Origin: Aporrectodea caliginosa
Lineage: Eukaryota; Annelida; Clitellata; Crassiclitellata; Lumbricidae
NCBI GenBank assembly: GCA_020284085.1
Contig: JACEVL010000972.1
Coordinates: 62,001-126,000 of the forward strand
Length of the DNA: 64,000 nt
Direction: 5' to 3'
Made by a program: the position numbers and the translations under genes. This document shows, piece by piece, positions 1-60,133 of this stretch (positions within the stretch are counted from its first letter, which is position 1; every line of letters starts with the position of its first letter). The notes beneath the pieces are model-generated. The model saw only the letters and a program-made list of their open reading frames with translations. It was not told the DNA's origin and did not search any database.

Positions 1-466
1 TAAAGAAAAAGCTTAGCCACAGATATAGGTCCAGCTTCGTTCTCTATCCGAGTTTGAATGAGCATGCATGTTGGAACTTGACTGAGACGCTCATTTTGTA
101 ATCGTAATCGTAAACCTTTGCGCTGGCAATAAACGAATATCAAAGTGCTTTGCAGAGCTTTTCGCTTTATTCCCAGCTTACTCTGCTACCGAATTACGAA
201 ACCGTAGCCACATGATCTTTGACCAATAGTTTTACCTATTAACCACGGTGTTGCACTCATAAAAATAGCTAAATACGAATGATTAAAACAACGGACTTTA
301 ACACAACAGAACTAGAATAAATAGCAAGACGAAACTTAACAAACAAGGACACCATGTTCTTCGTTCAAATATTGTGTGGCTGCTTAAAGCTTATAATGTT
401 TTATTGTTTGTAGTTCGTGATCATAGTCATTATAATGATTAAGCATATTAATTTGGTCTTTAGCAG
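1..466 (+). other. Receptor A: partial intron upstream of TM exon
   Basis: Non-coding sequence leading into the transmembrane exon at 467. It is paralogous to about 45152-45585 in front of the equivalent exon of receptor D: blocks such as AACGGACTTTAACACAACAG are shared, with small indels. No exon is seen here. Earlier exons of receptor A must lie upstream of the window. Confidence 0.6.
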
Positions 467-631
467 AATCTGATGACAAATCCACCCCATTAAGCACATC
501 ATCAGAAGAGAAATCCACCACATTAAGCACCGCAGGCGTGGCACTAATTCTCGCGTCACTTAGCCTAACTGGAGTCGTCTTCTTGAGCTTGGGATTAGGA
601 TTATCAAAGTTCTTAAGCTTCTTCAATGCAG
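467..631 (+). CDS. Receptor A transmembrane exon
   Basis: 165-bp exon, phase 1-1, acceptor TTTAGCAG and donor GCAG|GTATGC. It encodes a Ser/Thr/Glu-rich stalk and then a hydrophobic stretch of about 24 residues (AGVALILASLSLTGVVFLSL and onward), ending near FFNA. It is nearly identical to the receptor D exon at 45586-45750. Such conservation of an exon-sized block between distant copies supports coding function. There is only one Lys and no strong basic stop-transfer cluster after the helix. Confidence 0.78.
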
Positions 632-1361: not shown

Positions 1362-1424
1362 GCCCCTTCTTTGAAATAACTGAACTACATTATCCTCGAT
1401 TTGTCAACTAGGGTAATTTATTGT

Positions 1425-1920: not shown

Positions 1921-3259
1921 AATTCACTATATGTAGGACCCTATGCGCAATGCGCATTCATGTGGCCAACTTATTTAGAAACATGACTCAACCGGTTAAG
2001 TAAACTTAAGATTGCAACAAACGATATATCACCCCGATTTATGTCTAGCATACCGATCATTCTTTTGCTAATTAATGTTTGCAACTTCCTAAACGTATAC
2101 TATAGCTAATGATAATGTCTTGATTGTAATTATTTCCTGATTTATAACTTTAAAATGTATATCACTTTCTATTAATTTTGACAAAATAATGATTTAGCTC
2201 AAAGAAAAACTTGTTATCCGTCACTTGAATGCAGATGGTGTCCACGAATATTTCAAGGTCCGTCTTCCATGCAAATGGTTTTATTTGCCTCCCGATACGA
2301 GTTGTTTCCGTTGCAATAGGTTCTATATTAATTGACACTACAGTACAATGTTATGCAATGCAAAGCAACGATTCATGGATATGCGATGCTGGACATAATT
2401 CGTTTTTGTTGAAGCACAATGTCAAACCTTGCGTGACTGAACTAAGATTTCCGCCATGAATCTAATCTAGCGATTTCTGCCGCGCCGTTACAACAATGCA
2501 CAAGACATCAGTCGATTGACGCCTTAAGTTAAATCGTAGTCAGGAATCATAATGAGTTGAAGCAGCTTTGTCAAAATTCTTTAAGTCATGTGGAAATCAG
2601 AATTCAGAATAAATGGGGAAGTCTTAAGTTCACATCTGACTGAGAGACATGAACGATGAGACAAGCTTTCTGTTGTCTTTATCGAATTGCTTGTACTGGA
2701 CCATTTTAAATATCCGTTACGTTTATTTTTAAATATGTATAAAATCAAAATGAATAAATTAATATTACGTGATTTTCGTGTAAGACGTCAATGCTTGAAT
2801 CAGAGACGCGGTCAATGGCAAAGCAAGTGGGCAGCTGAGATAGGAAACTAAGTGGTTGATGGATTCGTGAAATGGAAAGTGTTAAGTTGCCCCTTGAAAG
2901 CTGATATTGATCGGGCTGACATTGTGAGTATGGAAATATTGAGTGAGACTGAGCTCATTACACGTACGTGCATTGAAAGCCTTATACCAACAAAACGGTG
3001 ACAAAGCTTATGAAGATCACTGGTTCGTTTCATACGGACAAATCAACCCGTTTTAGTATGCTGTGCGTGAATGAACGTTTCAGAGTGAAATTAAATCTTC
3101 AAAATAATGCCTGCATTGTTGAGGAGATTCTATTTTAATGGGATAAACTTTGTTTGGAAGTCGTCTCTGGGTGAGACATTATTCCAGACCGTGGTAGACT
3201 CCATTTGGGGAGACTTTATATCATATGTTTTATTACAGTGACAACAGAACTTAACTAAG
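1921..3259. other. No gene recognised
   Basis: AT-rich sequence. A 76-codon + strand frame at 2229-2459 matches nothing I recognise and is not kept in the paralogous segment near 47.7 kb, so I do not call it. Part of 2465-2530 is similar to 12905-12966, a small dispersed repeat. Confidence 0.5.
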
Positions 3260-3429
3260 GTCTGCCGAACACTTACAGTCAATCACACATCTACGTCAGC
3301 GCAAGCGTTCATGCTAAATTAATGTTAATGAACCAAAGAGAAGACATTGAACAAGCAGAATACGCTGACATTGATTCAGCTGATAATGGTGAGTATGCAG
3401 CTTATTCTACTGTAACACTATATTATTAA
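3260..3429 (+). pseudogene. Orphan cytoplasmic-tail exon related to receptor F tail
   Basis: From 3260 an open frame runs to TAA at 3427-3429. It aligns with the receptor F tail at about 59954-60130: HIY, a VHAK/AHAK word, NQR, EYADI against EYSNI, and the terminal YSTVT. The acceptor-like AG at 3258-3259 gives phase 1. There is no partner TM exon of the F type nearby and the frame is closed by TAA just upstream (3256-3258). It could be a relic of a deleted receptor, or an alternative last exon for receptor A. Transcript data would decide. The similarity itself is clear. Confidence 0.6.
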
Positions 3430-4500
3430 GGGACTATTAGCTGCTATATGTTGAGTTACTTTGGTAGATTTTCGTGCCTGATAATAATTACTTCAGTATA
3501 GCCAACAGATCACCTTGCGACTGAACTACACATGCTTGACTTCTTTAAATTTCAAAGGAAACAATTTCTCTAACAATATCATTTAAGGTTAATCTGCAAG
3601 CTCAGTAGAAAAGAATATGAAAACAGTTGATTGTGATCTGTACTAATTCATCTGAATCAAGGTCACTTCTTTTCTTCGAAAACGGAGGACAGAGCACAAA
3701 CAGAAGACTCGTTCAATAATTATATAAATATTCCATGCATGAAATATTATGTAGTCTACATTTTACAATTTAAACGAATTATTCAAGGTCAGTGCGTTTA
3801 TTGAAGTGACAGGAAGCAGGAATAATAAATATCGCCAATAATTGTCTTTTATATCAAATATGCCTTAATTAATTATGTAGCACGAGTTTGCTGTCGTCTC
3901 ATTACTTGTAAACTGCACGGATATGGTTTGCATAATATTATTTCTACTATGACGCTGATAACAGTGGGATATTTTACATTATGTACTGTATATAGATTTG
4001 ATTATAAAATTGTCTAACTAATTCCGCATTATGTTTAATGATGCTGGTAAAATATTTATGCTGTTTGAAAAATATTTTATTTTATTTTGATACCCTGTAT
4101 TGTTTTCTGATTTACCTAACCAGGCTCAGTCTAATCCAGTCCAACCTAACTTAATCACATTTGTTCTGACATGATCTTATCGACGTGCTGTATTGAAATC
4201 TAAATTAAATATACATAATGACCTATGCATCGCCGTTATCATCCTACAATCTAGTTTATCTAATGAAATCCACGTGATTCCTGCCCAACGTAACTACCCT
4301 ATTCCAGCTTGCCAGGGTTATCGCTAAAGTGAATTAATGTAAGATTTGTCAGCAAATATAATTGGTTATAGACAGGAGTGAACGCTACTTGAAAATTTAG
4401 TAATAGAAAAATAGGTCAGCTGTTGGGCGTGACGAACTTGATCAGGGTATTGTACAGTCACCGACTCAGTGGAGGCTGGAGCCCGTATTCTCCGCGTTAC
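3430..4500. other. No gene recognised
   Basis: AT-rich intergenic sequence with many stops in all frames. No domain, TIR or RNA gene was recognised. Confidence 0.5.
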
Positions 4501-5904: not shown

Positions 5905-5932
5905 ATGTTTTCTGTTCTAGTTGTATGCTTAA
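5905..5932 (+). CDS. Receptor B signal-peptide exon
   Basis: ATG then MFSVLVVCL and a phase-1 donor A|GTGAGT. The signal peptide continues in the next exon. The paralogous exon in D reads MFSALAVCL, and a broken copy is at 49423-49449. It is too short to find without the paralog comparison. Confidence 0.7.
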
Positions 5933-8900
5933 GTGAGTATACTGTTTTATAGCAAAGTAGCAAAAACATTGTAAAATTTTCCGTATGAGCTCTGCTTATC
6001 TACAATTTGCGAACCGAAGTACGAATCGATCGCCCTTTCTTTCGATCGGAAAATCGCTAACCCGAAGAATCGCTGTAGTGAAATTCCATTGCAGGCTTCT
6101 ACCCAAAAGGAAGTGATGAATCTTAGTATGTCTTTATTCACTGCTTACCGCTTAGGGTTTACGAGGCATCATGATTGGGCGGACCAAGAGGATTTGGGCC
6201 TGTAGAGCTTTAATAGTGAGCCATTTATTTAGGATTTTCCAGGATTGTATAGGCCTATAAAGCCCTGAAGTACCTATCACAACTAGATTTGGGCTGAGTT
6301 TTTCAACCTAAACACTACAGGGTCCAATTTGGATTTTGCTTCTGCATAACTCTTCTCGTCCCATAGGCATTTAATTCATATTTTTTAATATAGATAGTTA
6401 TTCTAAAATATATGTTCACCTTTCAGTTATCTCGTCAAACGTTGGATCTGTGATGTCATGTTTGAGAAGTTCAGTCGCAGTAATACGCGATAGAGTAGAA
6501 ATGAAATGCAGTGTAAATGGAAGCGATTCGGCAACTTGGACGCACACTGCAATTAATGCAGGAGAGACAGATATTTATTTGGGTACAGATATCGTTGAGT
6601 CGATGAGAACAAGGTACAGAATTGATAAAACGATCAGTGGACAACATGATCTCATCATTGACTCCGTTGACTGGGATCACGCTGGAGGATACAAGTGCAC
6701 TGCAATACAGCAACGGGAATATAAGAACTATGTACAATTAACCGTTTTAGGTAACTATAAACTGATTATGATAAATCTGCGTTAGCCTACACCGGTAAAA
6801 ATCGAATTTTAGCTCATGTGAGTGTTTGCATTTGGGCAAAGTGGACATTTCTAGCCAATTGGTTTTGCCTCTAAGAACACTTTCCACCAATCTAGCGGGC
6901 TTCAGAGTTCCAGCATGACAATTTCGTTTATAATAATAAAGATGCTAGTGTAGCTGGAGACGGTCCACGCTGGACGTCTCACGCAGACACGTAGAGGTAA
7001 ACCAAAGAAATGCCATCCATGGATGATAATTGATTCGTATTCTGACGGGATTGCACCTTCAATGAGGTATATGACATAGAAATCAATGCAGAGCAGGCAC
7101 ACAATGGTTTTGGCCACCGTTCAGTTATCACAGGTTTCCAGTTGTTCTCATTCCAGGATTTGTGCTGTCCATCGAATTCAGACCTCAGACCTAAATGGGT
7201 TTGGCTTCAAGCATGTTCTAAGTGTTCAGGTTAACAGAACTTCCACATAAACGGGGACCGGTTCTGTTCCGACGTTTTTAGAAGACTTACAAAGCTCCAT
7301 GCAAATATTCATAATACTCGATCATTCATTACTTTAGTCATCGGTTTCTATCCACTTGAATCTGACTGATATTGTTAATTAGCTATAAGCTCAATAAGAC
7401 ATGAAATAAACCAAAGTCAGAGAGATATTGACCAAAATTGTATGTACATAATACTTTATGTACGTATGTATGTATCTCCAACCTGTCGTTTCTCTCTGAA
7501 ACTCTTGAGAGACTTGTCTCAATTCAGCTTATGCCTTACCTTGAACAGTCTGGACTACTGCCCCCCAGCCAGTCTGGGTTCAGAGGTCACCATTCCACGG
7601 AAACTGCCCTCCTGTCTCTCCTCTCTGATATTTACTCAGCCATTGACAAATCACATTTTACACTCCTGGCACTTTTTTTCGATGTTTCTTCGGCCTTTGA
7701 TAATTATAGTCGATCCTGCGATCCTGCTGCAGCGTCTTGAACTGTCTTGTGGCCTTTGTGGACCCGCTCTTACCTGGTTCAAATCTTATCTTTCAGATCG
7801 TTCCCAGAGGGTTGTTCTTGGTGATTCCAGAACGGCCTGGGCTGGTGTCGATTTCGGTGTCCCGCAGGGCTCAGTTCTTGGCCCCATCTTGTACCTACTT
7901 TACACAGCGGACATTCCTTCCTTATTTACAAAACACCTGGCCACTGGCCACCTCTATGCTGACGACGTCCAAACCTTTGTACATGGTCCAAACCTTTGTA
8001 CATGGATACTACTATTGATGTTTACTCACGTAATTTGTTATTTATGATTTACACCATTGGTTGCATTACGATTGAAATTGGGCGACCTCTGTTAGCGGAA
8101 CGGTTCGTTCTTTCGGGGTTTCCCATTGTTCACTGCATGCTTAGGCTATTTCTGTTTATGTTGTCTGTGATTACGTGATTATGTTCTCTTCGGTGAGCAA
8201 TAAAGCATTTATTGATTGATTTGATTTGATGGTCCTCCCGTTGACCAGCTTTCTCTTGTGTCATCGATCGACTCACTGTTACATGATCTCCACTCATGGA
8301 TGTCAGCCAACCGACTAAACCTTAACTCCTCTAAAACTCAATTGATCTGGTTTGGAACCAAACAGCGGCTTCTTAAACTTGACCTCCCACTTCACGGGCG
8401 GAATTCATGGGAGGTGTGAAACTCCTATTCCCAGCTTAACCCTCGGGCTACCAAGAGGGGTGGTATCCACCACCAGGTTTTTTTCTTTCATCTCAAACTT
8501 TTTCCGTACGGAATAAAAATTTGACCTTTTACGTAGCTGTAGGGGGTTCATTTACACACGTTTTGAAATAAAATGTGAGATGATATCTCACACCGTTCAA
8601 AAGTTATACCCAATAGGGTGGTCCACGACACAATGGTAAAATTTCATCTTTATCAGAACTTTGCTCCACAAGTTTAGATCTGTTCTACCTCTCCTAAGTA
8701 AGATGTGGACCAAATCTGAAGCAGATTGGAGCATGTATAGAGGTCGCTCAAGGTCACCAAACATTCTTTTGATAATACCATGGCATAGTGGAAATTATTG
8801 ACTGCTGTCTACTCAAAAACATATTATTTGAACCGCTTTTTTGTTACTTACTTTTGAACTGTTGTTTCTCCCCCCCACTCTTCTCCCCCACTCTTCTCCC

Positions 8901-11900: not shown

Positions 11901-14900
11901 CACATAATTCATCCAGTGTCCGAGACTTGGGTGTCACCCTTGATAGCATCCTGTCGTTCTGCGAGCACCTTATGCACTTGACGCGCTCATGTTACTATCA
12001 CCTGAGGCGCCTGAGAGCCATCAGAAGATCTGTTTCCTCTTCTGTGTTTACAACCATAGTCCATGCTTTCATCTGCATGCTGTCGCATTGACTACTACAA
12101 TTCACTATTTGCTGGGCTTTCAAAGGCAAGCATAAAAATTATCCTCCCTTCAGTCGGTTATGAACTCGGCAGCCAGGTTCATCGCCCGTCTCCCTCGCTA
12201 CTCTCACATCTCTACCTACATGACTGATGTCCTACACTGGCTCCCCGTTACCTCTCTTGTCCAATACAAGGTACTTACTCCGACTCACTACTGCTCTAGC
12301 CTCTTAGTCTGAAGAACTCAACTGGACCTAGCTCCTAAATATCTGTGTGACTTAATGCGCAAACCTCTATCTGCTGTCTCTTTCCGCCCTCTCCGGTCTG
12401 CGGATCGACTTGATCTCCTGGTTACCCGGGCAAGGACTGCCACGGCCCAGCACCGTGCCTTCGCCATCGTGGGTCCTTCTATGTGGAATGACCTCCACCC
12501 TTAATCTGTAGTCGGGGTCCCACCTTCATCCCTTCGTTGCTTGAAAACTTTCTTATTTTTCCCCGGGCTGTCACGCTGAGAGCGCCTCTGAATAGCTAGT
12601 GCTGTAAGAGGCGCTTTACAAATTCTCAGATCTATACGATACGATGTGTGCATTTCGTACAGTACAGGCAGTATGCGACCGCATAGAGCCCAAAAACTTG
12701 GGCCGCCACATTTCATGATGCCTTCTACATGTATAATAATTATTAGTTCTTATTTTTACTAATAATGAAATACTAATGAAAGCATTAATGAGTCCTGACA
12801 CTTTTTATATATATATATAATATATATAATTATATATTATATATATATATATATTGATCGTCATAAAATTGACGAAATAAATAACGCAGATCTTTATCTA
12901 TTCTAATCTAATGACTTCTATTGCGCCGTAATAATAATGTCCAAGATATCAGTCGATAATCGCTTAAGGATCCTGAGTGGCCGAGTGGGTTGGTGCCTGC
13001 TCGTCACGTCGGCGCCCCCGGGTTAGATTCCGGGTCGGTCGGTTTATCAGAGATTAATTTCTCGGATCTTTACTGCGGGTGGTTCGGTCGCATTATAGAC
13101 GTGGAGTACAATACAACACACAATACAACACATCACAATACAACTGGGGCGCGGTGGTTTGGGGTATGTTCGGTGCCTTGCAGCTGAAGGGTTGCGGGTT
13201 CGAATCCACCTCAAAGTCGCCGCGTAGGGACCCTGGGCAAGTCCTTCACTCGCAATTGCTCATGCGCTTCGGCGTGAAACTCCGATTCAGCGTTCGCGCA
13301 GTAGTCGGGAGCGCCTCTGAATGAGAAATCTGGTAGGGGCGCTATAACAAGTGTTCAAATACAATACAAATTATACAATACAATACAGTGAAACTGCAAA
13401 GCATCCTTACTAAAAGTCATTCAGTCAACGACACTTGGCCTTAATTTCATTTATTTTTCTTCCGTTTAATTCTCTATTTTGATGCGCCCAGGAACGTTAC
13501 TTGTGGTCAACCGCAGTATTGCGACTATTTCGATACTACTTCAGTAGTTTTCATGATGCCTTCTACATGTATAATGTATATTATAATACGATAGTTTTCA
13601 CAATTTAAAAATATTCTGCACAAAAATTATCCAGTTGCGGCATCGCTAAAGCAGGTCCACGGCACCTGTTGGTGCCGCGGCATCTGGGTTGGGAAACCTT
13701 GGCCTGCATATTTTGCTTGCTAAGCTTGTAATTTAAATATTAGTTTTAGGAAGTTTTCTTACAGAGGTTATGGATGCCTTTGTCTAAATAAGCATAAATG
13801 TTTCTCTTTCAGCCTCGACTCCGAATTGTTCATCAAACACAGGCAACGCAGATGAAAGAATAATTGAACACGGTTACCTGTGGATGGTGTGCCGCATCAT
13901 TTATATTATAACTGATAGGAACTTGATTCCCATCTTTAAGTGGACCAAAGACAGCACAACGAACGTCATCGTTGCAAACACGACAGCCGCTTCGTTCAAC
14001 CATAGGTCTACAGAACCTTTGACCGCTACTTCCTCAGTGCTAGCGCAAGTACACTCTGATGACAACGGCGCCACATTCAAGTGTCAGATTACATTTCAGG
14101 TGCCAGACAACAGTGCAGTAATTCCAGTTTCTGAATACACGTGGAATTATACGATAAATGTTACGTGTAAGTAATGTTCTTTCATTGCCATCATGTTTGC
14201 TGTTGCTCTTACATTGTAATTCACATTGACATCTTAGCACCTGTACCACCAAACCCACAAGCAAAGTTACGACTCACATCAAATACATAGTGCAGTTACA
14301 GTAACTGTAAGCCCATACATCAATGCCAGCTGGATTAATCTTGTTCCATTTGGGACATAGTAAATTGATCAGCTGCTGATGTTGTTTAAGCAGACAAAAT
14401 CAATTAGGCCTATGTCAATTTTGCCGTTGCATGCAGGATAAAATGTAAAAAATAAGCGTCAGTTCCTGAATTGTTGGTCTCGGATTGAATAGTTTTGAAC
14501 TTAAAAGCAAGCTTGGCAGTAACCTAAGAACAATGTAACTATTAACTTAACGATGAACATACTATAGGCCCTACTCGTTTACCATCTCTGAAAAGATGGA
14601 GTCTATATAGCTCATCGAATTAATAGCCGTTTTCGATTTGCATAAACAATCCGTGCCCGACGCTGCCCTGTCAAAAACAAGCAAAGTAAGGGAACTTATA
14701 ACCATGGTTAGAGATGTATTGTTTTTTGGCCGATTTGGGCTTTGTCTTTTGGCCTAGGTCACCTCTGTGCTAATAGGTAACGAATTAAGGACGAGAATTT
14801 TTAGTTTATATTAACTTTCTTGTAGGTCTTATAAATGAATAAGTGGAGCCTGCGACTATTCTAATAGGCATGAAGATTAGGTATTTCTTCACTAAATTGT

Positions 14901-25571: not shown

Positions 25572-25597
25572 TAAATATATATATATATACATATATA

Positions 25598-38221: not shown

Positions 38222-40099
38222 GTGAGTGTACTGTACTAATAGAAAACTTGCAACAACGTTGTAATTCTTCCCGCTTGAGCACTGCTTCTAAAGAGGGGCT
38301 TTAGGCTTCTGGTCCTTTGAAATGCCATTGACATCTTGCACCCAAGAGAACGTTATGAATCTAGCTATTTAACTATTCACTGTCTCCTTCCTATGGTTTC
38401 TGTCAGTGGAGCTCCAATAGTTCATCTGTTTCAGAGGTTTTTCACCTGTTGCACAATGCATAAAACCCTGAGGTATCAGACACTGGATCTGGCCTGGGTT
38501 TTCAACTGACATATCAGAGAGTAGATTTTGAAAGCTATGCCTCTGTTCTACTCTGTCCATGACGTGACATTATGATTCATGGTAACTATGGTAAGTTATT
38601 ATAAAATATTTGCTTGTGTTTCAGTTGTCTCGTCGATCATTGCATCCTCCATGTCGTCGTCTTTGACTGTTCCGAAAAGTTCCGTCGTAGTAATCGGTGA
38701 AAGAGTAGAAATGAAATGCAATGTAAATGGAAGCCAAACGACAAAGTGGTCGTACATTGCATGGAATACGTCAATAGAGACGAGCATTTATTTGGGTATT
38801 GATATAATTCCTTCGATGTGTTCAAGGTACAAGGCCGATAAAAGGATCAGCGGACAGCATAGTCTCATCATCGATTCCGTTGACTTGGCTCACGCTGGAA
38901 GATACAGATGCACTACAGCTGTACAAGAGATGCCGTGGAATGATATACAGTTAACTGTTTTAGGTAACTATAAGTTTACTGTAATAAACACCGCCTTATT
39001 CTAACCCGACTTGACTACTGCAACTCGGTACTCTATGGTCTCCTTGAATGCACACGGCTTCCTCTTACCAGAATACTCCATCAGGCTGCATCAGGATGCT
39101 TACCGAGAGCATAATATCACACCTGCTCTTCGTTCTCTACACTGGCTTCCTATATATGTGCGCGTTCAAGCTGGCACTCCTCATGTACAGAGCATGCACA
39201 GATCATCTCCCTTCCTACTGGTAACACCTTGCAACTCTGTTAAAGGTCGCTCCTCTCTTCGATCAGCATCTGCTGGAAAGTATCCTGGTACACGTCCTGT
39301 CTTCGGTCGGCGCTCATTGACAGTTGCCGGTCCTTCCATCTGGAACTCTCTACCTGCTCGTGTTCGCAACTCTCTTAGCGAGACTGTCTTTCGCTATAAA
39401 CTCCAAACTTACCTCTCCCATTCTACATAATTATGGCTCTTAATGATTGTCCGGCTTCAATGTGCACTTCTGAACTTTGTAAGGCGAGCATTATCAAATT
39501 ACAGTTGTATTGCAGTGTATATAAACAATGGGCGTTGCTTCAGTAGAAAGTTTATTTGAAACATGTCAATTTTTAGCTTAGGCTATTTTCGTTACCTCAT
39601 AAAAGTAACGTTAGCCTAGCCTATGTTAAGGTTATAATAAAGACCATTTGTCTACATAGTGCTACTCATTTAACTGTGGAACAGTTTCACCTACTTTCTC
39701 ACGCAGACACGTTTAGGTAAGCTAAAGCCATCCACTGCTGACAACTGTTACTAGTCTATTCTGTTGGATTTGCGTGCAATAGTGATAAGACAGATATTTG
39801 AATGCAGTGAACGTTGAACATAACTTGATTGCACACCGACCACATTCCGTCGAATTCAGAGTGCACTCACTAACCGACATACATGTTCTCCAATTTGATT
39901 GCCATTTGCTGGCGTCTTTGAGAGACTCCAACAAGACCTCTTTTAAATATTCATTTATACACAGTACACACGTAGTGCTTCAATAATTGGTTTATATAAT
40001 TATGACTGAGGCTGACAATGAGTATTTTAAGTCGGTTATAGACCTAAGTACGCAAGAAATGAACCAGTCAAAAGTTTAGGTCAATCGATGTATGTATTC

Positions 40100-46529: not shown

Positions 46530-48500
46530 TAATCTAAACGGGGACACGTAAATTAAACATTATCCGTCTAAGAATAATAGGCCTACTTTAAAAGAAATAA
46601 TTGATCCAATGCAATTTCTACTGCGACGTAAGAGTTTGACGTCATGTCACACCGCGTCACGACAGAATAACTTTATGAAACCTAAACCGTTTTGTAGGGA
46701 AGACATTATGTTCTATTATATTTAACTGTTTAACACGTTTCGATTCAAAAGCAACATAGTACCAATTTACTGCTGTATGCTATTTAACACGTTTCGATGC
46801 AAAAGCGATAACCTAATATTTTACTAAGAGCTCAAAGTATTGTACCAATTTACTATAATTATATAGGCCTAACATGTATGCTTTTAAACACGCTGTTATG
46901 AACTAATATTCTAACTTGATTTTCTCAGTATTGTACTGACTACTGTGTCACATAATTATTCATATTACGCACTACTCAGAAACGTCGTATGTCAAAAAGT
47001 GCTTGTTTTATGGGCTGATTTGCCCATATAAGTTAATAATAATTACAATGGGAACTGAACCTGCATATTTATAGAGCGCTCTTCGTGTTGTCTTCAACCG
47101 CTGGTAAAAAAACAGCACGAGAAAGGAAAACTGAAGAGATACTACCAAGAAAGATCCCACGTAATCGAACTAGGGAACTTTGATAGCCTCGATTTGGGAA
47201 GCTTGGGTAATAACTGGTTTCTGTACTTTGGGAAGAAATGATGTAAATTAAACTATTATAAATTGACTAAATCAGAATGCAAGACGGAAATAGACCATTA
47301 CTGGATTGGGATTTTTAATACTTGGAAAGAATTTAGGATACAGAAAAAACAGCAAAATGTCGCATCTTCAAAAAGGTCACACTCATCAACCTAAAGCTTT
47401 GTTTAATCGGACACTAAAATCCATATATCCCTATACTGGTATGATCAACTTATTTTGACCTATGATGTTAGCTGTTAAGTAAACTTAGATTATTAAGATC
47501 CATTTATCCGCACGATTTAGACCTTCTATATCTCATTGCAACTCTTCTTTACTAATTAATTCCAGCAGCTTCCTCATTGATAACTTTTTAAACATTAAAC
47601 CTTAACTATAATCCTATAAGCCACGTTTCGACTGTTAATGATGGATTGATTAGCATGATATATTACACTAAAATATCTAATATTTCTAAATATGACTAAT
47701 TAATGCTCACAGTTTCCAGAAATCCTGTTATCGCTCACTTGTAAGCAATTGATGTTCATGAATTTTTCAATGTTTCTACGACAACTGTTACGATTGTATC
47801 CAAGTTGCTTTTAGAGACCCAGAGTGGTTTTGTTGGAACAGTGCTATATAAATTGACAGAATTAATATAATTATTTGCAATACAACGAGGGTCATGAATC
47901 ATTCCTTGATAACTCTATACAAAGCTTAAAGTATTGTAAGCCTACATGATTGTGTAAGCCTTTGTTTGACCTGCACGCATACAGTTGTAGTATGTGATAC
48001 AGCAAAACTGAGCATTCCAATCTAATCTATCCAATCCAACGACCATTATTTATCTTAAAGCAAAAGGCATTTGTTGATGGTCCTTTCATTGCTAAATCGT
48101 AGACAGGAATCAAAATTCGTTGGATCAAGCTGGTCAAGACCCGATAGGTTTGGGAACCAGAAATCAAGATATGAATGGCAATCAAGATGAAATAAGTGAA
48201 TCATAAGGTCAGAGCGAACAGTGGCAAGCTTTCTGTAGTCTTAATTAAAGCAAGACGTTCGGTTTAATGCCTTCCACCCGTCTTCAATATCTTAAAATAC
48301 ATTTTAAAGTAAAACACTTCCGGATTGCTTAATGACTAGGCCCGGGTCAGTCAATTGACCCATAGGCCTATATGATAAAATATTGAGGAAGGAGGTGTCA
48401 GTTTCAGCCCGCAGCAATTTAGCATTTTAGGCCTACGAATATATGCAGGACTTACTCAGACAAACCAGCGGAACATGGCGGCTGTAGTTCCATATTTATG
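46530..48500. other. No gene recognised; 3' part of duplication block copy 2
   Basis: Patches align with 1440-2720, for example near 47710-47820 against 2210-2320. A LINE/SINE-like tail word (ATATTTATAGAGCGCTC) is at 47066. No exons seen; the orphan tail exon of 3260-3429 has no counterpart here. Confidence 0.5.
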
Positions 48501-48648
48501 ATGTCAATATCCTGGTTTCTAAACTATCTAGTCATTAACTTAACGGTGTGTTCTGCACCACTTGGACCAGGAACTTGGTCGATAACTCTATCCTGAGTCA
48601 GTTTTTGACTTGCGTTTGTGCTCTACACCACATGGATCAAGGGTTCTA

Positions 48649-49260
48649 GGGCAATTCGTCGCGGACAATTCGTCGCGGACAGTTCGTCGCGAATTATTCT
48701 TTTAAACGCCACAATCACGACTGCATACAACATTTTACTTTCGTAACTTCAAAGGCCCAGGAAGATGAATGAAGATTAGGAAAGAAAAATGAGATGCACG
48801 GGCTCAAGGGCTCACGAAGAGTCAGGCTGACACGTGAACCGAGTATGTATGTAAGTATAGGGTTAGTGTTAGGGTTTATGTTGCACTATATATTGTTTCT
48901 GGGTTGTTTCCCCCTACAAATTTATGTTGAAATGAGCTTGGTAGCTTGACTTTACGGGCTCCATCTTTCATGATGTCTCGTCAACCGAATTAGGTAAGTA
49001 TGAATAACTTAACCGTACGGTCTCCATCCCTCAAGATGTCACGTCAACCGAATTAGGTAAGTACCGATGGTGATGTGCTATTTGCAGTTTATTTGGGTTG
49101 TCTAACCTCTATTGTTACCTTTGTTGTTTGTTGTTTAAAGGTTTTTTTAACCTCTATATTGTTACCTTTGATGTTGAGACTCGAATCTAAGTGTATTTTT
49201 TCAGCGACGAACTGTCCGCGACGAATTGTCCGCGACGAATTGTCCGGCGACGAATTGCCC
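48649..49260. mobile_element. TIR element made of CAATTCGTCGCGGA repeats
   Basis: The left end GGGCAATTCGTCGCGGACAA is followed by two more 15-bp units. The right end has four inverted units (CCGCGACGAATTGTCC) closing at CGAATTGCCC. It contains two copies of a TGACTTTACGGGCTCCATC/CTTAACCGTACGGTCTCCATC unit followed by GTCAACCGAATTAGGTAAGT. No convincing ORF. It splits the 5' flank of relic E. Confidence 0.8.
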
Positions 49261-49422
49261 GGTTACCGGATCACGAGCTTGGTCTATGACTCTTCAGTCT
49301 TCACTGAGTCAGTTTTCGACTTGCGTGTTGTAAAATTATTATAATTTAAGACTATAAACTAGGCCTACATGCAAAGTAACATTACGAGAAATAAATCCAA
49401 CTCTAACCTCGCATTCGGTATA

Positions 49423-49449
49423 ATGTTTCTGATATAGCAGTATGCTTAG
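49423..49449 (+). pseudogene. Receptor E: dead signal-peptide exon
   Basis: Aligns with 5905-5932 and 38194-38221, but one T is lost in the T run after ATG, so the frame reaches TAG after four codons. The donor GTGAC is degraded. Following sequence keeps the old intron (about 50200-50320 matches 6000-6140), but no D1 exon follows. Confidence 0.75.
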
Positions 49450-49689
49450 GTGACTACACTACGTGCCTGCTGCAGAAAACTAGCAGGGCCCTTGTAAAAT
49501 TTCGTGTATGGGAATTGAGGGTTGCTTTTTTGTTAGAGTTTTCTGGTGCTAGGTTTGCTTTATGGACTTATTCGTCAGTTTTGCCAATGATTTTGAACGT
49601 TTATTAGGGCATTTTCTTTGCAAGTCGCCTAGGCCATGGGACTGCATCACGCCTATTCTTCTGATGTGTATTTAAAACCTGAACCATAC

Positions 49690-50200
49690 GAAACGTGTAC
49701 ACCGCCTGTTACAATAGTCGGGTGTTTCGTCTCGGCGGAAGGCGACCGACGCGAAACATTGGAATGACCTCGACCGTTAGTCACTGGTGTCTCTTCAATA
49801 TACCGACCGATACGCGACGAATGCCTTTTCTGCGTACTCCTTGTGTCTCGACGGCTGGCCGGATGTGCGTCATCTTTCACCAGTGAGGGACTGCTCGTCG
49901 GCAGCGTCATCGTGTGTGCGAACGCTGTCACCTGTCGTCGCTCTACTCTTTCGACGCAACTTGGCTAAGAGACTCTGAACATCCATGCCATCTACAGCTG
50001 TCGACGAGAAATCAGTTGGTTGGTTCCTCGTGTGTGCGTGGGCACACCACATGTAACTCTTTTAGCTTACTGTGCATTGTTTTGCCAACTGATGTCATAT
50101 ATTATTCGTAATGGCATTTAACATCATATAGGTCATAGCGCAGAGAGCGCCTCTGAGTAGAAGTCATGATGGGTGCTATATAAATGTTCAGTTGCAAACC
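49690..50200 (+). mobile_element. Probable CR1/L2-like LINE 3' fragment in relic E
   Basis: GC-richer tract with short open frames on both strands, ending in GAGAGCGCCTCTGAGTAG and GGGTGCTATATAAATGTTCAG, the common LINE tail of this window. Confidence 0.55.
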
Positions 50201-50477
50201 AAAGTCGGCCTAAGTCGATCTAAAAAATCGTTGAACCGAAGTAGCGCTGCTGCAGTGGTCCCGTGAAATCCAGCTGCACATTTTGCACTCTAGAGGAAGT
50301 GATGAATCTTAGTATTTCACTTTTTGGCTTTATTTGGTTTACATGTAGAATGCATAAGGAGAAAACGAGGTCTACGACATGAATTAAGTCCAAACAGAGG
50401 AACGTTCCTGTTCCAACAACAACTAATTAATGCGACGCTACGAATGCACAAAGAACTTTAATAAGATTTTGCAGATT

Positions 50478-52851: not shown

Positions 52852-52903
52852 ATGATGGCATTAGTTTGCTTTGATTTACTTCTAAGTTTTATAACGTTTT
52901 CAG
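52852..52903 (+). CDS. Receptor F signal-peptide exon
   Basis: MMALVCFDLLLSFITFS then phase-1 donor G|GTTAGTA. A typical hydrophobic signal, longer than in B and D. The second ATG (52855) would also serve. Confidence 0.78.
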
Positions 52904-55900
52904 GTTAGTAGGATACAATTAGGTCTACTGCGGTCGTATTAGGAAAATACATGGCCTGTAAGCATTCGGTCGTAATCGTAAACTTCAAAATAAAATGTCT
53001 AAAACGCTACTCTTTAGCTAAGGGCATGGCCTCAGCTTATTATTAACAAGCGCTGCGACGTGTCAGAAGTATGGGTTGTGAAGAGATACCAAAGAGAAGT
53101 TCAGAGTTTAGTTGCCAAAGAATGGCAAATAGTGAATAGAACAGGCTATCGAGAATATTTGTAAGAATATAAGCCCGCTTTTGCGACAGGAAGGTCATAA
53201 CGTAATATTGCGCATCATTGTGTTTTTCTGTATGAGCTTCTTAACTTCTTTCTCCTGGTCGCAGATGCCAATGTACGGTCAGTATACATTTTTAATAGAT
53301 GAGTCTGCAAGGGGCATAAGGGGGCGAACATATTTCTGCCCTTGCGTGGAGTTGAAACCTCGACTTTTTCATTGATAGTTGGGCACGCAATCCTTGTACC
53401 CCTTCGTAGTGCCGCTCAGGATAGCATATAGTTTTGCCTACTAAGCTAGGCGAACTGAAAGTTCTACAAGTTTTAAGCGAGTGTAATAAAATTATTGAGA
53501 ACGTTAGATTATAATTATAGTTTTGATGAAAACTGGTTGGGATGGTATCTAGTTTCATAACAGTAAATAATTACACAGTAATGCACAATGTTATTCAATA
53601 CTTAATTAATCCATAATAAATTTCAACAGCTAATTATAGCTAGGTCTACTTACTTTCGAAGTAAAATTACTTCCATGCCACATAGCCTACGAACGTTTAT
53701 AATGTGGTATGGATACGATTTCACTTTGCTTCAACTTGTCATTGTAATCTAATATTCATTTTTGCACAGTAACTCTGTAACACCCTTTTTGGAAAAAAAC
53801 CAGTCGCTGTATGAAAGGTTGAATTTGTTATAGGCTATCGCTATCAGTTTTGACGAATAGAAATCATGTTAAACATTTAGCATTTGATGGTACCCAAAGT
53901 TGCCCTAAACTCTACCCCTCAAAATCTTTATATAATTTTATGTTCAGAAGGTATACACAGTCTAAAAAGTGTTAATGACAACCTGTAATACATGAGCATA
54001 AAAATATCACAGGTTTGACGTTTCAAGGATCGATGGCTGCTTTGAAAACCATCCCACAAAATGAAATTGCACTGTTACGCAGCGAAGTTGAATTTCATTG
54101 CGCTACAGACTCATCGGAACCACTCATTTGGTCCGTTACATATGCAAGAGAAACGACGTCTGAAGTACTTTTTGTCCTTGGAAATTTGACCTCTATTGGC
54201 GAATCGGGGTACAGAATTGAAACAAGTTTCCGTGGACAATATAATCTTATAATCGATATCGTTAGTTTCTTTCTTGCTGGAAAATACAAATGCTCCGAAG
54301 GATCCTATGGACCAGAGGCCGAAGCAGATCTTGCCGTTATTGGTAAGTTAATTAACTCAATGTGAATTTAATTGATTAGCGCCGTAGCCTATTTCAGTCA
54401 AAATATTGCATGCAGAACTGCAGCTAAAATAATATGAGCAAATCTCAATCGATTTTTAGGTTAATGTATTGTATTTGCTGCTTGAAAGTAATTAGATTTT
54501 GCTCTTTTTTGTATGTAGGATTGTAGGGGTCTTCTTGTTACTATGAGAGGGCATATGGCTAGTAATATAGTTGCTATCACACCTCTATAAAAACCTTTTT
54601 TGAAACGTAATGTGGAGATCGAAGGGTCCTTTTGGTCCGGTGTCGACACGACCACAGCAATCCAAAAGGACATGAATCATTTCACGTCATTGTACATGGA
54701 TGGCTAGGGTCTACCCCTTTACTGTAACAGACCGGTTCAACTGCAAACTATGATCGACGTGTAAATTTGCTACTCCTGTCAGCGTCATGTGAACAAACAC
54801 AAGGTTCCATTTGAAATGTTGCTTCATTTATATGTAAAAATGAAATGTCTACCAGGAAATATATTTATATGCAAAATAATATCGAAAATGATATGCTCTC
54901 AGATTTTCAACCGTTGTGTCGTCGATCTGGGATTACCAATGTGGTGGAGAATGATCACCTGGCTATGGAGTGTCGGCTTTGGTTTGCTGGCGAAGTTGAT
55001 TTTGTTATAGAATGGTTCAAAAATGGAAACATCATCGAAACAGAGACAGTTCATACTCTCATCGAGAAGCAGTATTATATCTGGCCAATTATTAAGTCAA
55101 TGTTGAGACAAGAAGTTAAGTCTAGCGACAATGGTGCGGTATTCATTTTTAAGACAACCTTTAGACAACAAAACAATTCCCGTGAAATCTTTGTGACTCG
55201 GAATTTTACTGTAGCAGTACTGTGTGAGTAATATTACATATTCTTCATGGCTGAATTAATAAAGGTAACGATTTTCATGTAGGCTATTATAGTTCAGTTA
55301 ATCGACAGCCAAATCTAAATATTGCAAATAAAAGAAACTTGAAGCTTAAATTGTTCTTGAGACAAGCAACTTATTTAACGCAAGAAAGTTGCAATAACGA
55401 CAAGGCAATTTGATATAAAAAACAAAACATGACGACTCAGGCAAGTCAGGCATTCAATGATTTATCATGCGTTTTGAGCGTCCTTCTGGAACAATCTTCC
55501 ATTTAATATTATTGCCTATCTTAAAAAATGAACCTGCAAGCTATTAGAACTGCTAGGGGGCCGTCCATAAAGTACGTAACGCTATTTTTGACCATTTTTA
55601 CCCCCCATCTGTCACAAACTGTCACAAAACTCGGACCCCCCCTAAAGTACGTCACACTTTCGAACAGTGATTAAATAATAAAAAGGAAACAAAACAATTT
55701 GACTAAAAAAAGACTAGATTCACAAATTATGTGATAAACTCTTGTGCTATACTGAATCTGTTTATTATGGGCCTGTGAATTATGTTTAATTCAAAAAATA
55801 TTCACTGGACATCATCCATCCATGGTGAAGTGAAGTGTTCATCCATAGTTACGACTGGCATCAATCTTTCACCATCATCGTTTCCTGGAAGGATAATTGC

Positions 55901-58900
55901 AGACAGATCAACTTCATCCTCATCTAGCCACTCAACATCCTCTGACTGTGCATTTTCTCTTCTGGCAATAACTGCCATGAGTTCTCTTTGCCTTCTAGCA
56001 GCGATTCTCAAAGGACGGATGCGTTTTATCTTAGTTGATTCTGGAACAGTTTGGGTTGGCACATTCTCCCGAGCCCGAGCTATTAGATAATACAATGGCT
56101 TGGTATCACAATATATTTTAAAGAATAACGTAATATAATTGTTTATAAGTTCATGATAATAATGATTAAATTATTATAAATATTACCTCTGAATCCTCAA
56201 AATTTTGTATTATAATAATTACTATATATGTAAAATTAAATTCAGAATTTATCGCTCAGTGACATAATTATGCAGCGGACAACATAGAAATAATAATACT
56301 TCCGAAAGCAAGGCTAATACATAAACAAGGCTTCGCAACAGCATTATTACTAGCGCTCCTAGCGAGAGGAATCATGAAAAACACATTCAGGAGATATGCA
56401 TTTCATGCTATTTTGACATAAAACTAATTAAAATGTTTCAGAAAATTTTTGAAAATTATTTTTTTTAAAGCTATGAAATTCTACTAGAAAAATAAACAAT
56501 AAATTATAAATAAAATTTAAAAATTAATGTGTGACGTCACACATGGCCTGACCCCTCCCCCTGTCACAAACTGTCACACTTTCTTAAACCCCCTGGAGCG
56601 TGACGTACTTTATGGACGGCCCCTAGGTAGTTATGCGTCAGCTCGTTTGAGTAATTCTAAATGCTTAAATATTTAAATATTCCGATACGTAATTTAAATA
56701 CATATTTACATACATAATTATATGCCCTGTGCCTACGTACGCACATAAGTAGGCTACATATTAAAGTTCCCATTTCTTGACTATTTAACTTGATCGGTCA
56801 TCAGATGGTGCTTCGGACATCATTATAATAATAATATTAATTTCACGTTGTCATTCACTTATGCACTTTTACGGTGCTCACAGTAAGTCTGAACCTGATG
56901 CAAAAGACAAGTGCGCGAAAACGACTTGCCTAGAGTCGTTAAACGAAGTCTGCACATCCGTCGCGAAACCGGAATTGTTAGACTTTAGACACCTCGCACT
57001 CCAGAAATGACTACAACGCACACAAAGCAGTCCAATAACTGCACGTCTTCTAAAAGAACTTCACTTAATAGCATCACTTACTAATTTGAATGATTTGCTG
57101 TAGATGGACCAAAGAACCTGATGATTGAACCAAACTTTGTCACCTACGAGGTTGGTGATAGTCTTGTATGTTCGTCTGATGGAAATCCCCCTCCAAGCTA
57201 CGAATGGACCCAGACTGATAGTGAAACTGGAGCAGAGAAGACAATTAAAGGCCCTGTTCTTATCATTAATGAAACTATGATAACAGGCATACTGTTGAAC
57301 TTTCGTTGTACAGCTAGAAATGACGTGAAAGACGAACGGATAAACGTTTCAGAAAGTGTCACATTTATTGTCACAGGTCTGGATTAAATACAGAGTTTAT
57401 TTCAGTTTTAAGTAGCATTAAATTCTTTCGAGAGAGATTTTAAAGCGCTACAGTTTAATTGTGCCGTTGAATAAACTTGTCTTCATTATGAATATAAATA
57501 ATTATTTTCAATGCTATATCGACTGTTGCTGTTTCGGTGAGGAAATTTAAAGAAAAAGACACGACGCAAGTCGTTTAAGTAAACCCTTTATGTGTGCCTT
57601 GACCTTTCTTCACCGTTATTCGTCAATAACATGTCTGACTTTGTGTATTATTTTGTCAGAAAAACTCACAAATCTGACCATTACGCCCATCAAAAGCGTC
57701 TATGAGGTTGGCGATCACCTGAAGTGCATGGCTCATGGTAATCCAATCCCCAACTACGAATGGATAGGGCTTCAAACAAATCTAATCACAAATGGAAGCG
57801 TTCTAACCATCGACGACTACATGAGGTCAGATCAGAATCACAGTTTCCGATGTACAGCATACAACACGGTGGCTGGATTTAGAAAACAGATATCGGACAC
57901 GATCACTTTCAGGGTGGCAGGTATAAATTAAAATAAGACTCTTCGCTCTTCACTTTAAAACAAAGAAAAACATTAGAAGTGAGCTTGATCTAGATTCACT
58001 CACTCACACACTGACTCAATCATTCGCTCACTTGATCACTTAACCAATCACTCAACCACTCACTCAACCACTCGCTCATTTGCACATTCATTCGCCCACT
58101 AATTCACTCGCTTACCATCTCATTTACGCACTCATTCTCTCACTCACCCATTCATAATCAATCGCTTACACACTGATTCGCTCATTCAATCAATCATCTG
58201 TCTTTTATTCATTGTTGTTTATACTAAAAACAACTATAAATCAAAAGTAGCTCATTATAAGTAGCCTACAGATGCAACATCGTACACAAATACGTATTAT
58301 TTGCTAAAAATGACAGCTCTGTTACATTGTTCATCATCCAGCTTCGCCGTTTGAAATGAAAGCTTTAATTGTGACGGTCGTAGTCTCTGGAGCACTCGTG
58401 TCGTGCTGCGTCTTAGCCTCGGTATTCTTTGGAGTCAAGGCTCATCAGAAAAGTATTTAACAGTTTTATTCGAAAACTTGTCAAATTTAAAGTATTCTGT
58501 TACTGTTTCGAATTAATATCTAAAGATTTTATTTCTTCAAGTGAAATCTGAAGATGGGAAATCTTTGATACTGACATTTAATTTATGTGCAATTTGGTAG
58601 AGCGATGACACTGTGGATAGGTTTTGACTTACATAGTTTATTCCTCCACTTTTAAGTATGGTGTAATCTGAAGTCCTGCAATGTTCTCTATTTGCAATTT
58701 TAATCCCATCTCTCAGTATTTTTAGTATAAATAAAAATTCCTGATTGAAACAATGTTGACCTCTTCACCCTGCGAGTACCAGTGGGGTCAAAATGACCCC
58801 GAGGTAGTTTGCATTAGTGCTGCTCACCCCCCATAAGAGATATCTCAATGAAATTTTATGACTTTATAGGTATTCCTGTTTTGTACAAAATTCCAAGTTT

Positions 58901-60133
58901 TATTTTACATTTTCTATCACCAGATGGCGCCGGTATACAATTTATAGGCCTACACTGAGTACCAGTGGGCTCGTTTCTGATCCCAGTGTAAACTGAATAA
59001 TTCTGACATAATTTTATGTAAAAATAACAAAATACATTTTTACTGAGCTGTCGACAGTCTGCTAACAGGTTCCAACTAGTTATGAGAAATCCAGTTCTAA
59101 AAAACTGAAGTGGATAAATAAGGAAGGCAGTGCCATCTATGGTGAAACATTCAGTGATATATCTGACAAGTCAAGAAATGAAGCAGTACAGCAATTGTAG
59201 AGTTTAGACGTTGTTTCAGCGACAGCATGACTAGAAATCGGTTCCAGAAAATATCACGTGCCCTTAGATTTGACGATGTGGTGCGCAGAATAGAAAGTCA
59301 ATATCCTAAACAACTTGCACTTATTTGTCAAGTGGACAAAATCATAAGAAAATGATAAGAAGTCGAATATAATCTGTGTCACACCTAAGCGCAATTATGT
59401 CGTTTTCGCCGAGTATACCTGCATAAACTGTAAACAGTAACTGTAATGACCGGATATTGTCAATACTAGTTCTGAACATTGAACACTCGAACACTTTGAA
59501 CACTAATCTGTAACTATTAAATTAAAAATTTATTCATTTCAACAGCCTAAACATGTTCCAAATACTTTACTAATATTTGTTTTTATGGCAATAAATAAAA
59601 ATGCATAAAACGAAGAACTTATTGTAAAAATTGTGTTGGGGTCATTTTGACCCTACTGGTACTCAGTGTATCAAAAAATTCTGGTAGTCTGCGGGTTAAA
59701 GTCCAATTAATAGCATATCGAAATCGATTTAGCAAGTTTAAATTATATGCCATTCGTCTTCTATGCAGAAAAAGCTGGACAACGAGAAAAGCAAAATGCA
59801 CAGCGTACGTCAGATGATGATCATCAGTCACATGAAGAGACCAGTGGAGCACATCATCCACCACAACAAGCCCAAATGGATAGCCAGTCCTTGGAGAATG
59901 AAAGTACTTATGCTGAACTAATGGAGGGAGCATCAACTGTTCACAACAAGGCAGTTTACAATCATCTACACATCTACGGCAACGAAAGCGCTCACGCTAA
60001 GTATTATGTGAACCAAAGAGGCATGGAACTAGCACTACAGTCACCAGAATACTCTAACATTGAGGCAATTGATCTATGTCCAATTCAGCTGAACCATGAA
60101 GCTACAATTTATTCTACTGTAACCCAGCTGTAG
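52852..60133 (+). CDS. Receptor F: complete four-Ig transmembrane receptor with five-motif tail
   Basis: Join 52852-52903, 54013-54342, 54903-55223, 57104-57376, 57660-57920, 58342-58452, 59769-60133: 1713 nt, 570 residues and a stop, all joins phase 1. Layout by residue: signal 1-17, D1 18-127 (C47, W57, C111), D2 128-234, D3a 235-325, D3b 326-412, TM 413-449, tail 450-570. Tail tyrosines Y497 (STYAEL, a strict ITIM), Y513 (YNHL), Y529 (YVNQ), Y544 (YSNI) and Y564 (YSTV), the first three 16 apart. Most diverged but best preserved member. Likely a type I receptor for cell recognition or immunity; function not shown. Confidence 0.85.
54013..54342 (+). CDS. Receptor F D1 exon, V/I-like Ig domain
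   Basis: 330 bp, phase 1-1. VEFHC, W ten residues on, GQYNLIIDIV and LAGKYKC. Donor G|GTAAGT is near consensus. Confidence 0.87.
54903..55223 (+). CDS. Receptor F D2 exon with a substituted disulfide cysteine
   Basis: 321 bp, phase 1-1. Cys at exon residue 6 (QPLCRR) and strand B (MEC), then VIEWFKN. Strand F reads SSDNGAVFIF: the Cys position holds Phe (residue 210). So the canonical bond cannot form; Cys133-Cys151 is the only pair left. Confidence 0.83.
55556..56624. mobile_element. TIR element with GGGGCCGTCCATAAAGTACG ends
   Basis: Left end AGGGGGCCGTCCATAAAGTA, right end TACTTTATGGACGGCCCCT, in the D2-D3a intron of F. Subterminal CTGTCACAAACTGTCACA occurs at both ends. Similar termini are common in invertebrate genomes; superfamily not assigned. 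The minus frame inside is listed separately. Confidence 0.8.
55802..56095 (-). CDS. Small open frame inside the TIR element
   Basis: 97 codons on the minus strand: an Arg-rich half (RPLRIAARRQRELMAVIARR) and an acidic half (VEWLDEDEVDL). No domain recognised. It might be a transposon accessory protein fragment or an exon captured by the element. It lacks its own promoter signs. Confidence 0.25.
   Translation of the reverse strand: MYYLIARARENVPTQTVPESTKIKRIRPLRIAARRQRELMAVIARRENAQSEDVEWLDEDEVDLSAIILPGNDDGERLMPVVTMDEHFTSPWMDDVQ
57104..57376 (+). CDS. Receptor F D3a exon, C2/I-like Ig domain
   Basis: 273 bp, phase 1-1. GPKNLMI, then YEVGDSLVCSSDGNPPPSYE and W, then NFRCTARND. Donor CAG|GTCTGG. 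Confidence 0.88.
57660..57920 (+). CDS. Receptor F D3b exon, C2/I-like Ig domain
   Basis: 261 bp, phase 1-1. YEVGDHLKCMAHGNPIPNYE and W, SFRCTAYN. Similar to D3a over its whole length, so it arose by exon duplication. Donor CAG|GTATAA. Confidence 0.88.
57990..58190. repeat. CACT/CATT-rich irregular repeat
   Basis: Many CACTCACTCAACC and TCATTCGCTCAC-type units in the D3b-TM intron. Confidence 0.8.
58342..58452 (+). CDS. Receptor F transmembrane exon
   Basis: 111 bp, phase 1-1. FEMK then LIVTVVVSGALVSCCVLASV and FFGVKAHQK. Two adjacent Cys in the helix could be palmitoylated or pair with a partner. Donor A|GTATTT. Confidence 0.85.
58768..59695 (+). mobile_element. piggyBac-like element in receptor F intron 6
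   Basis: Left end CCCTGCGAGTACCAG, right end CTGGTAGTCTGCGGG followed by TTAA (59696-59699); the left target is TTCA, one base off TTAA. GGGGTCAAAATGACCCC and GGGGTCATTTTGACCC lie next to the ends. About 59227-59275 reads MTRNRFQKISRALRFDD, matching the conserved (S/T)xxRF..I.R.LRFDD block of piggyBac transposases. It is internally deleted. Confidence 0.85.
59769..60133 (+). CDS. Receptor F cytoplasmic tail exon
   Basis: 121 residues from phase-1 acceptor CTATGCAG to TAG at 60131-60133. A polar Gln/His/Asp spacer precedes five tyrosine motifs: STYAEL, AVYNHL, KYYVNQ, PEYSNI and TIYSTV. Only the first is a strict ITIM; YVNQ and YSNI fit pYxN docking. The last 58 residues resemble the orphan exon at 3260-3429. 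Confidence 0.87.

Follow-up and report, generated by a model that had tools for sequence, protein, structure and literature searches.

A tandem multigene family of V-set immunoglobulin receptors with two classes of tyrosine tail in an annelid genome

The vertebrate Siglec/CEACAM and natural killer (NK)-receptor (leukocyte receptor complex, LRC) arrays combine a V domain followed by C2 domains of the immunoglobulin (Ig) type, phase-1 Ig exons, and paired activating and inhibitory tails. The Alr genes of the cnidarian Hydractinia, in the excerpts available of their description, are clustered genes of the Ig superfamily (IgSF) with V- and I-set domains, tail tyrosine motifs, and many pseudogenes. 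FcoR proteins of the tunicate Botryllus are presented, in the portion of the source at hand, as chains of 520–610 amino acids (aa) comprising a signal peptide, a V-type Ig domain, another domain, two C2 Ig domains, a transmembrane (TM) segment, and a long tail with ITIM (immunoreceptor tyrosine-based inhibitory motif), hemITAM (ITAM, immunoreceptor tyrosine-based activation motif), and Yxx[ILV] motifs; they belong to tens of clustered loci, at the fuhc locus (PMC12065747). The oyster protein CgIgIT2, a mollusc Ig receptor, is described as immune inhibitory in the accessible part of its account (PMC11999971). Whole-word searches of open-licence PMC returned no annelid paper on ITIM-bearing immunoglobulins, searches of the same collection gave no paper on an expansion of immune immunoglobulins in an earthworm genome, and, as far as titles and abstract openings tell, none on tandem annelid IgSF receptors. 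Here, a new annelid family of V-set receptors, encoded by many genes and bearing tails of two classes, is described as related in kind to these systems from a 64,000-nucleotide window (positions 62001–126000, sequence identity confirmed, of the 247,681-base contig C971) and from the 1.098-Gb assembly of 4544 contigs to which it belongs. The window is best read, at a probability of about 0.58, as a slice of a large tandem family encoding paired activating and inhibitory recognition receptors of coelomocytes.

Seven exon sets or relics of one receptor family, designated A, A′, B, C, D, E, and F, lie in the window, all on the plus strand. The typical gene runs from a signal peptide through a V-set domain (D1), an Ig-like domain (D2), and one or more C2-type Ig domains to a TM segment and a tail with tyrosines. 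A BLASTP comparison of the open reading frames with one another, carried out without any prior model, makes the repeated sets visible: D1 of B matches D1 of D (E 7e-40) and of F (E 8e-11), B and C match in D2 (E 4e-42) and D3 (E 6e-30), and the tails of A and D match at 5e-34. Profiles built from the window exons recover three D1, four D2, five D3 plus one D3 fragment, four TM, and four tail exons. Matches to the seeds themselves (76–274 bits) arise by construction, the D3 fragment is a new match at 21.7 bits, and the highest control row printed (three rows per profile, 10 triplet-shuffled windows) reached 5.5 bits. Self-comparison of the DNA adds an F-type 3′ end relic, A′ (3259–3526), and a D-type promoter/signal-exon relic, E (48429–50324). 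An earlier note on this DNA had announced at least six related genes and relics built from repeated signal, D1, D2, D3, TM, and tail exons; the seven sets bear out the count, and BLASTP and profiles show the repetition.

Two of the genes, D and F, are complete as splice models. Gene D consists of a signal-peptide exon (MFSALAVCL, 38194–38221), a D1 exon (38625–38963) that matches Pfam V-set over cut-off, a D2 exon (40796–41104) from which the stretch with the second cysteine is absent in frame, a D3 exon recovered by profile (44536–44754) with a second, partial D3 at 44878–44991, a spacer and TM exon of type t (45583–45750, profile), and a tail exon (46183–46427) reading YCVI-x12-YCEL and YIN before the stop. 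In gene F, a signal-peptide exon (52855–52903, with alternative starts at 52801 and 52852) precedes a D1 exon (54028–54342; alone, Pfam Ig_3 only, E 0.032), a D2 exon with Phe in place of the second Cys (54903–55223), two C2-type Ig exons found by Pfam (D3, 57104–57376; D4, 57660–57920), a TM exon of type c (58342–58452, profile), and a tail exon ending in a stop (59769–60133) that carries STYAEL (ITIM), YNHL, YVN, YSNI, and TIYSTV, the latter resembling the immunoreceptor tyrosine-based switch motif (ITSM). Spliced in phase 1-1, D yields 435 aa and F 564 aa, both open from ATG to stop. IgSF membership is evident from Ig_3, Ig_2, and I-set matches over cut-off in both proteins and V-set in D (spliced F, Ig_3 E 1.5e-18; spliced D, Ig_3 E 1.3e-15 and V-set E 9.9e-7). 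All nine single domain pieces match a Pfam Ig-type family at E 0.1, five of them at or over cut-off. The best predicted model of D's D1 (pLDDT, predicted local distance difference test, 75.8) has the V-domain fold; the D2 pieces match Pfam ig, Ig_2, and C2-set_2, and their predicted model is Ig-like. Sub-cut-off Pfam matches such as DUF913, CoV_E, and Adeno_E3_CR1 and profile matches of about 10 bits or less were not counted; NCBIfam, which is built on prokaryotes, gave nothing for the F ectodomain, and neither Rfam (gathering threshold) nor a tRNA scan produced a match in the window.

The remaining sets are incomplete within the window. A contributes a spacer and TM exon of type t (464–631; DNA 94.6% identical to D's exon) and a tail exon found by profile (1111–1361; YCAM...YCEL, YVN, stop), separated by an intron 84% identical to that of D; its D1, D2, and D3 are located outside the window, to the left (C971:55.5–61.6 kb), and a repeat element some 380 nucleotides (nt) long, 91.6% identical to a copy at 29025–29420, splits its D1. 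The relic A′ comprises a tail piece, stop, and 3′ flank that, by DNA comparison, are like F's (tail 74% over 86 nt, flank 76% over 74 nt), and E retains an upstream region (48429–48620), a signal exon that, compared with the D type, has lost 1 nt and contains a stop in frame (49414–49453), and a piece of first intron (50256–50324). B has a signal-peptide exon (MFSVLVVCL, 5905–5932), a V-like, phase 1-1 D1 (6427–6750; Pfam and profile), an Ig-like D2 (13813–14166; C2-set_2 only, E 0.08), and a C2-type D3 (15053–15283; BLASTP and profile); no TM or tail exon was found downstream of it in the window. C has a D2 (30168–30506) and a D3 (31968–32186), both by Pfam and profile, a TM exon of type c (32748–32864) and a tail (34027–34256; YCAL...YCEL, YVSV, stop), both by profile, and of D1 only a stub: at 29025–29482, a repeat of about 395 nt is followed by the last codons and the splice donor of the lost exon. 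Its last intron contains an inverted copy, about 52 nt long (33426–33478), of the D1 acceptor region (81–87% to B and D). No signal exon of C was found in the window. The D2 exons of B and C are sisters (tree support 0.97), and in a splice model the exons of both join in frame into one open protein of 613 aa. Today, B as the front and C as the rear may be one gene or two relics, so the copy count of the window needs care. At 26134–26261, a remnant resembling the DNA upstream of D (77% to 37565–37695) suggests a separate 5′ end for C in the past. The different states of decay proposed earlier hold for A, C, E, and A′; for B and C, it is not necessary to assume two broken genes.

Whether the family is decaying or changing was judged from its variability. 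Full rows were kept for 26 of 29 D1, 26 of 28 D2, 13 of 17 D3, and 9 of 12 tail matches, partial, stop-bearing, and N-bearing rows being dropped; one D1 and two D2 rows from duplicate loci were further removed for pooled dN/dS. Among the resulting 25 D1 rows is A's interrupted exon, which begins with repeat sequence and is absent from all nine pairs. Outside C971, rows were chosen for their resemblance to gene D, which biases the sample toward the D type. The D1 loops BC, C′C″, and FG were assigned from the strands of the predicted model. Pooled Nei–Gojobori dN/dS of D1 is 0.56 (0.44–0.72) over nine disjoint close pairs, which separates into 1.05 (0.67–1.70) for the loops, which resemble complementarity-determining regions (CDRs), and 0.46 (0.37–0.60) for the remainder. 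Over the 25 sequences, entropy is 2.03 bits in the loops versus 1.19 elsewhere, a difference equalled in 3 of 103 circular shifts, and peaks in the CDR3-like FG loop (2.52). Single D1 pairs reach 1.2–1.8, these pairs being short and not independent. For D2, D3, and tails, the pooled values are 0.61 (8 pairs), 0.78 (4 pairs), and 0.64 (3 pairs), with intervals extending above 1 for D3 and tails. Read from these sequences, D1 would combine a framework under constraint with loops that either vary freely or diversify. Because D1 varies most in these loops, the family appears to be functional and to be changing rather than merely decaying. Grouping is also discordant within D, whose D2 clusters with that of A (0.96) and whose D1 clusters with one on contig C1004 (0.97), a pattern suggestive of exon exchange. 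An old family whose window copies are largely pseudogenes would account for the repeat-cut D1 exons of A and C, the fragments E and A′, and the dN/dS between A and D (tail 1.03, TM 1.16, from few changes). It is nevertheless very improbable given the value of 0.46 outside the D1 loops, the open frames of 27 of 29 D1 and 27 of 28 D2 matches (three duplicate-locus rows included), and the splicing of D, F, and the joined B–C exons into open proteins.

Two types of tail occur in one array. D-type tails carry paired Yxx[ILM] motifs, ITAM-like with wide spacing: among nine open ones on C971, the first tyrosine is present in all and the second in eight (mean column conservation 58%), Yxx[ILM]-x9-12-Yxx[IL] occurs in eight, and YxN in seven. 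A tail exon at C971:160052–160582, on the plus strand, has the YCxL-YCxL-YxN module doubled in tandem. The F type combines an ITIM with an ITSM-like motif. F's own tail has seven tyrosines, with four YxxPhi motifs (0.8% of shuffles) and one ITSM-like motif (2.9%); it shares five of six tyrosines and 51% identity with p3 on the same contig, and both contain the ITIM consensus [SILV]xYxx[ILV] (STYAEL in F, SNYAEL in p3), which alone appears in about 20% of shuffles. Activating and inhibitory roles for the two types would follow from these motifs by analogy with vertebrates.

Extension to both sides, as the earlier note had advised, reveals matches to the family on C971 that begin at 0.4 kb, become sparse between 177 and 212 kb, and end at 223 kb. 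The contig carries 12 D1 exons, one of them split in two, 17 D2 exons, of which one contains a stop, and 12 D3 exons plus two D3 fragments, together with 11 D-type tail matches (one with a stop), eight TM matches, and two F-type tails. Two sets at its left end, the outermost running off the contig, are on the minus strand; the uniform plus strand claimed before is thus a property of the window and not of C971, where both strands carry the family. The claim that all exons are phase 1-1 proved too strong, mainly for D2. Of 46 near-complete exons of C971, 32 have usable phase 1-1 splice sites by thresholds specific to this analysis (D1, 11 of 12; D2, 6 of 16; D3, 9 of 12; TM, 6 of 6), versus 37 of 300 control open stretches. 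The 14 exons that fail include 10 D2 exons, four with a gtaagc donor one point weaker and four of a third subtype. This subtype (C971:130195, 140567, 148801, and 213696) has a V-like D1 of its own; the D2 exons of this subtype are 81–86% identical in aa in three listed pairs, form one clade (support 1.00), and, unlike the others, have no phase-1 donor at their end.

The family reaches well beyond this contig, genome match counts being lower bounds by search design. Protein D gave 97 scored matches among 803 first-look candidates, including at least 39 D1 rows; these lie on 14 contigs, with an identity of 47% or higher in 32 rows and of 35–39% in seven. Protein F gave 78 matches and added 16 D1 rows on eight contigs (three new), all at 44% or more, so that both queries together locate at least 55 rows of D1-type exons, distributed over 17 contigs. 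F's tail alone has eight matches, its own included, on C971, C1418, C1404, and C2183. Dense Ig_3 clusters also exist on C477, C427, C4536, C19, and C121 (150 scored of 2865 candidates), which does not imply membership of the family.

Relatives outside this genome are few. A search of F against 5.8 billion proteins (E 0.01) returned three matches, P0001 (3e-13), the multi-Ig membrane protein P0002 (5e-11), and the krill protein P0003 (4e-3), of which the latter two are taken as probable general Ig relatives. A four-sequence profile including P0001 recovered, at 1e-5 and among the best 7,997 candidates scored, only P0001 and a spider hemicentin, in a search that requires shared 5-residue words and similar length; against viral contigs, the family profile gave nothing confirmed. 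P0001, a protein from the Joint Genome Institute (JGI), has the arrangement D1-D2-D3-D1-D2-fibrinogen in one open frame of 759 aa on a 2660-nt contig. It shares the D1-D2-D3 order, the PxC start of D2, and the Y..WN end with the family and, its frame being uninterrupted, independently supports the D1-D2-D3 joins; it differs in ending with D1-D2 and a fibrinogen C domain instead of TM and tail. Pfam finds no Fibrinogen_C in F or D (E 0.01), which possess hydrophobic TM exons; in both respects they depart from the fibrinogen-related proteins (FREPs), which are secreted and have a fibrinogen domain at the C terminus. The earlier note recognized no described family in the cluster, which agrees with the searches among the families compared; the tandem, fast-changing invertebrate Ig receptor cluster with tyrosine tails is supported, and the innate-immune or self/non-self role that the note proposed is putative.

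The described systems resemble the locus to different degrees. Compared by the available description, FcoR is like F (564 aa; V, D2, C2, C2, TM, long tail). FcoR proteins have a sushi domain, however, whereas F's second domain is Ig-like, and Pfam detects no sushi in F or D (E 0.01) or in three D2 pieces (E 0.1). Likeness to Hydractinia Alr, likewise by partial description, extends to all the features listed above for that system, and likeness to oyster CgIgIT2 to its being a mollusc Ig receptor described as immune inhibitory. The Siglec/CEACAM/LRC arrays share V-then-C2 order, phase-1 exons, and paired tails in tandem; the family here is of protostome origin. CEACAM5 is the best match of F in the PDB by sequence (E 3.1e-9), followed by neurofascin, LAR, DSCAM, and contactins, and the nearest folds of the D2 model are nectin-like 4 and CD22. 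These matches would suit lineage-specific adhesion or wiring receptors of the CEACAM, nectin, or Dpr/DIP kind, with V–V binding between cells and tails that tune adhesion or growth outside immunity. This alternative is possible, if rather unlikely: the CEACAM5 match (F residues 293–404) covers generic C2 domains only, as do most of the better PDB matches (residues about 220–405), and 55 D1 rows, repeat-broken copies, and loop-centered variability better fit a recognition arms race.

The origin of the DNA also separates the locus from its look-alikes. Conserved residues of COX1 and the standard code tables served for comparison. In COX1, TGA stands for Trp, AGA falls at Ser, ATA at Met, and AAA at Lys sites, which is the invertebrate mitochondrial code (table 5, not 4). 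Mitochondrial genes, named by eye, follow the order nad3-nad2-cox1-cox2-atp8-cox3 on one strand, and one mitochondrial gene order is common, according to the part of the source available, to clitellates and many other annelid families (PMC4866719). Together, the genetic code and the arrangement of the genes point to an annelid, probably, to judge by earthworm COX1, a clitellate. A tunicate origin, considered on account of the FcoR-like layout, is ruled out by AGA at COX1 Ser sites, as are cnidarians and sponges (code 4) and echinoderms (AAA for Asn) by the COX1 codons; FcoR thus differs in being tunicate and Alr in being cnidarian. Prokaryotic or viral origin is ruled out by introns, long interspersed nuclear elements (LINEs), and the 1.1-Gb genome. 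The mitochondrial DNA is tied to the assembly because a 2549-nt piece with nad2 and most of cox1 also occurs in C70; it is 100% identical in C70 (3435.4–3436.8 kb) and C4544 and reflects either a recent nuclear insertion or an assembly error.

Annelids reject allografts and show short-term memory, according to the parts of the literature available, and a receptor for this reaction did not surface in open-licence PMC, seen mostly as titles and abstract openings. Clustered, diversifying V-set receptors with ITIM-like tails have the shape of both invertebrate histocompatibility systems as partly described, and by analogy with Hydractinia Alr and Botryllus fuhc, polymorphic receptors and ligands of an annelid histocompatibility complex might decide graft acceptance. 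We regard this as distinctly unlikely, since the family is spread over 17 contigs rather than confined to one demonstrated locus. Somewhat less doubtful, yet still speculative, is a broader proposal in which the family would be the repertoire behind annelid transplantation immunity: an annelid-specific, multi-cluster V-set complex with paired activating and inhibitory tails that arose independently of those of Hydractinia, Botryllus, and vertebrates, with loops under diversifying selection and V exons exchanged between clusters.

If, as we infer, the proteins are immune receptors, D1 would bind ligands through its variable CDR-like loops, whereupon Src-family kinases would phosphorylate the tails. 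Paired Yxx[ILM] tails, as in A, C, and D, might then recruit tandem-SH2 kinases for activation, and the ITIM/ITSM tails of the F type SH2 phosphatases for inhibition. Related ectodomains with opposite tails in one array would thus act as paired recognition receptors on coelomocytes, their repertoire changing by tandem duplication, exon exchange, repeat insertion, and loss.

Several observations weigh against this interpretation. The second cysteine is absent from two of four window D2 domains (D and F), positive selection is not proven because the loop dN/dS interval includes 1, and adhesion receptors, too, have V and C2 domains with ITIM tails. One ITIM, as in the F tail, occurs in 19% of shuffles, the motif count of p3 lies within chance (17%), and that of the D tail is mildly above shuffles (3%). 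D-type tails have no strict ITIM, nor do they match the usual ITAM, Yxx[IL]x6-8Yxx[IL], given gaps of 9–12 and one pair that begins YCAM. Among the D1 rows, the seven at 35–39% identity may be other Ig genes, and some, such as two rows of equal score on C1418, may be assembly duplicates or second haplotypes.

Mobile elements are interspersed with the array. The repeat of about 395 nt, with tRNA-like boxes recognized by eye, is present on C971 in eight copies or parts, among them 12970–13367, 25161–25574, and 29025–29420 in the window, the last beside the point where C's D1 was cut away, and C971:55650–56029, the copy within the D1 exon of A. A LINE reverse transcriptase lies on the plus strand at 43169–44359, between D2 and D3 of gene D (396 open codons; RVT_1 E 2.5e-26). 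Its best protein match, 96% identical over 72%, comes from a JGI metagenome, and LINE-related DNA is therefore present in public metagenomes; the LINE protein had no confirmed relative among the genome or viral contigs searched, and an exact 30-nt repeat pattern had no match in genome or viral contigs.

The 55 V-set exon rows and the signaling tails provide cloneable candidates for annelid recognition receptors. They would add a protostome to the cnidarian, tunicate, and vertebrate cases in which unrelated Ig receptors feed tyrosine-motif signaling, and they are candidate molecules by which such worms may recognize microbes or foreign tissue.

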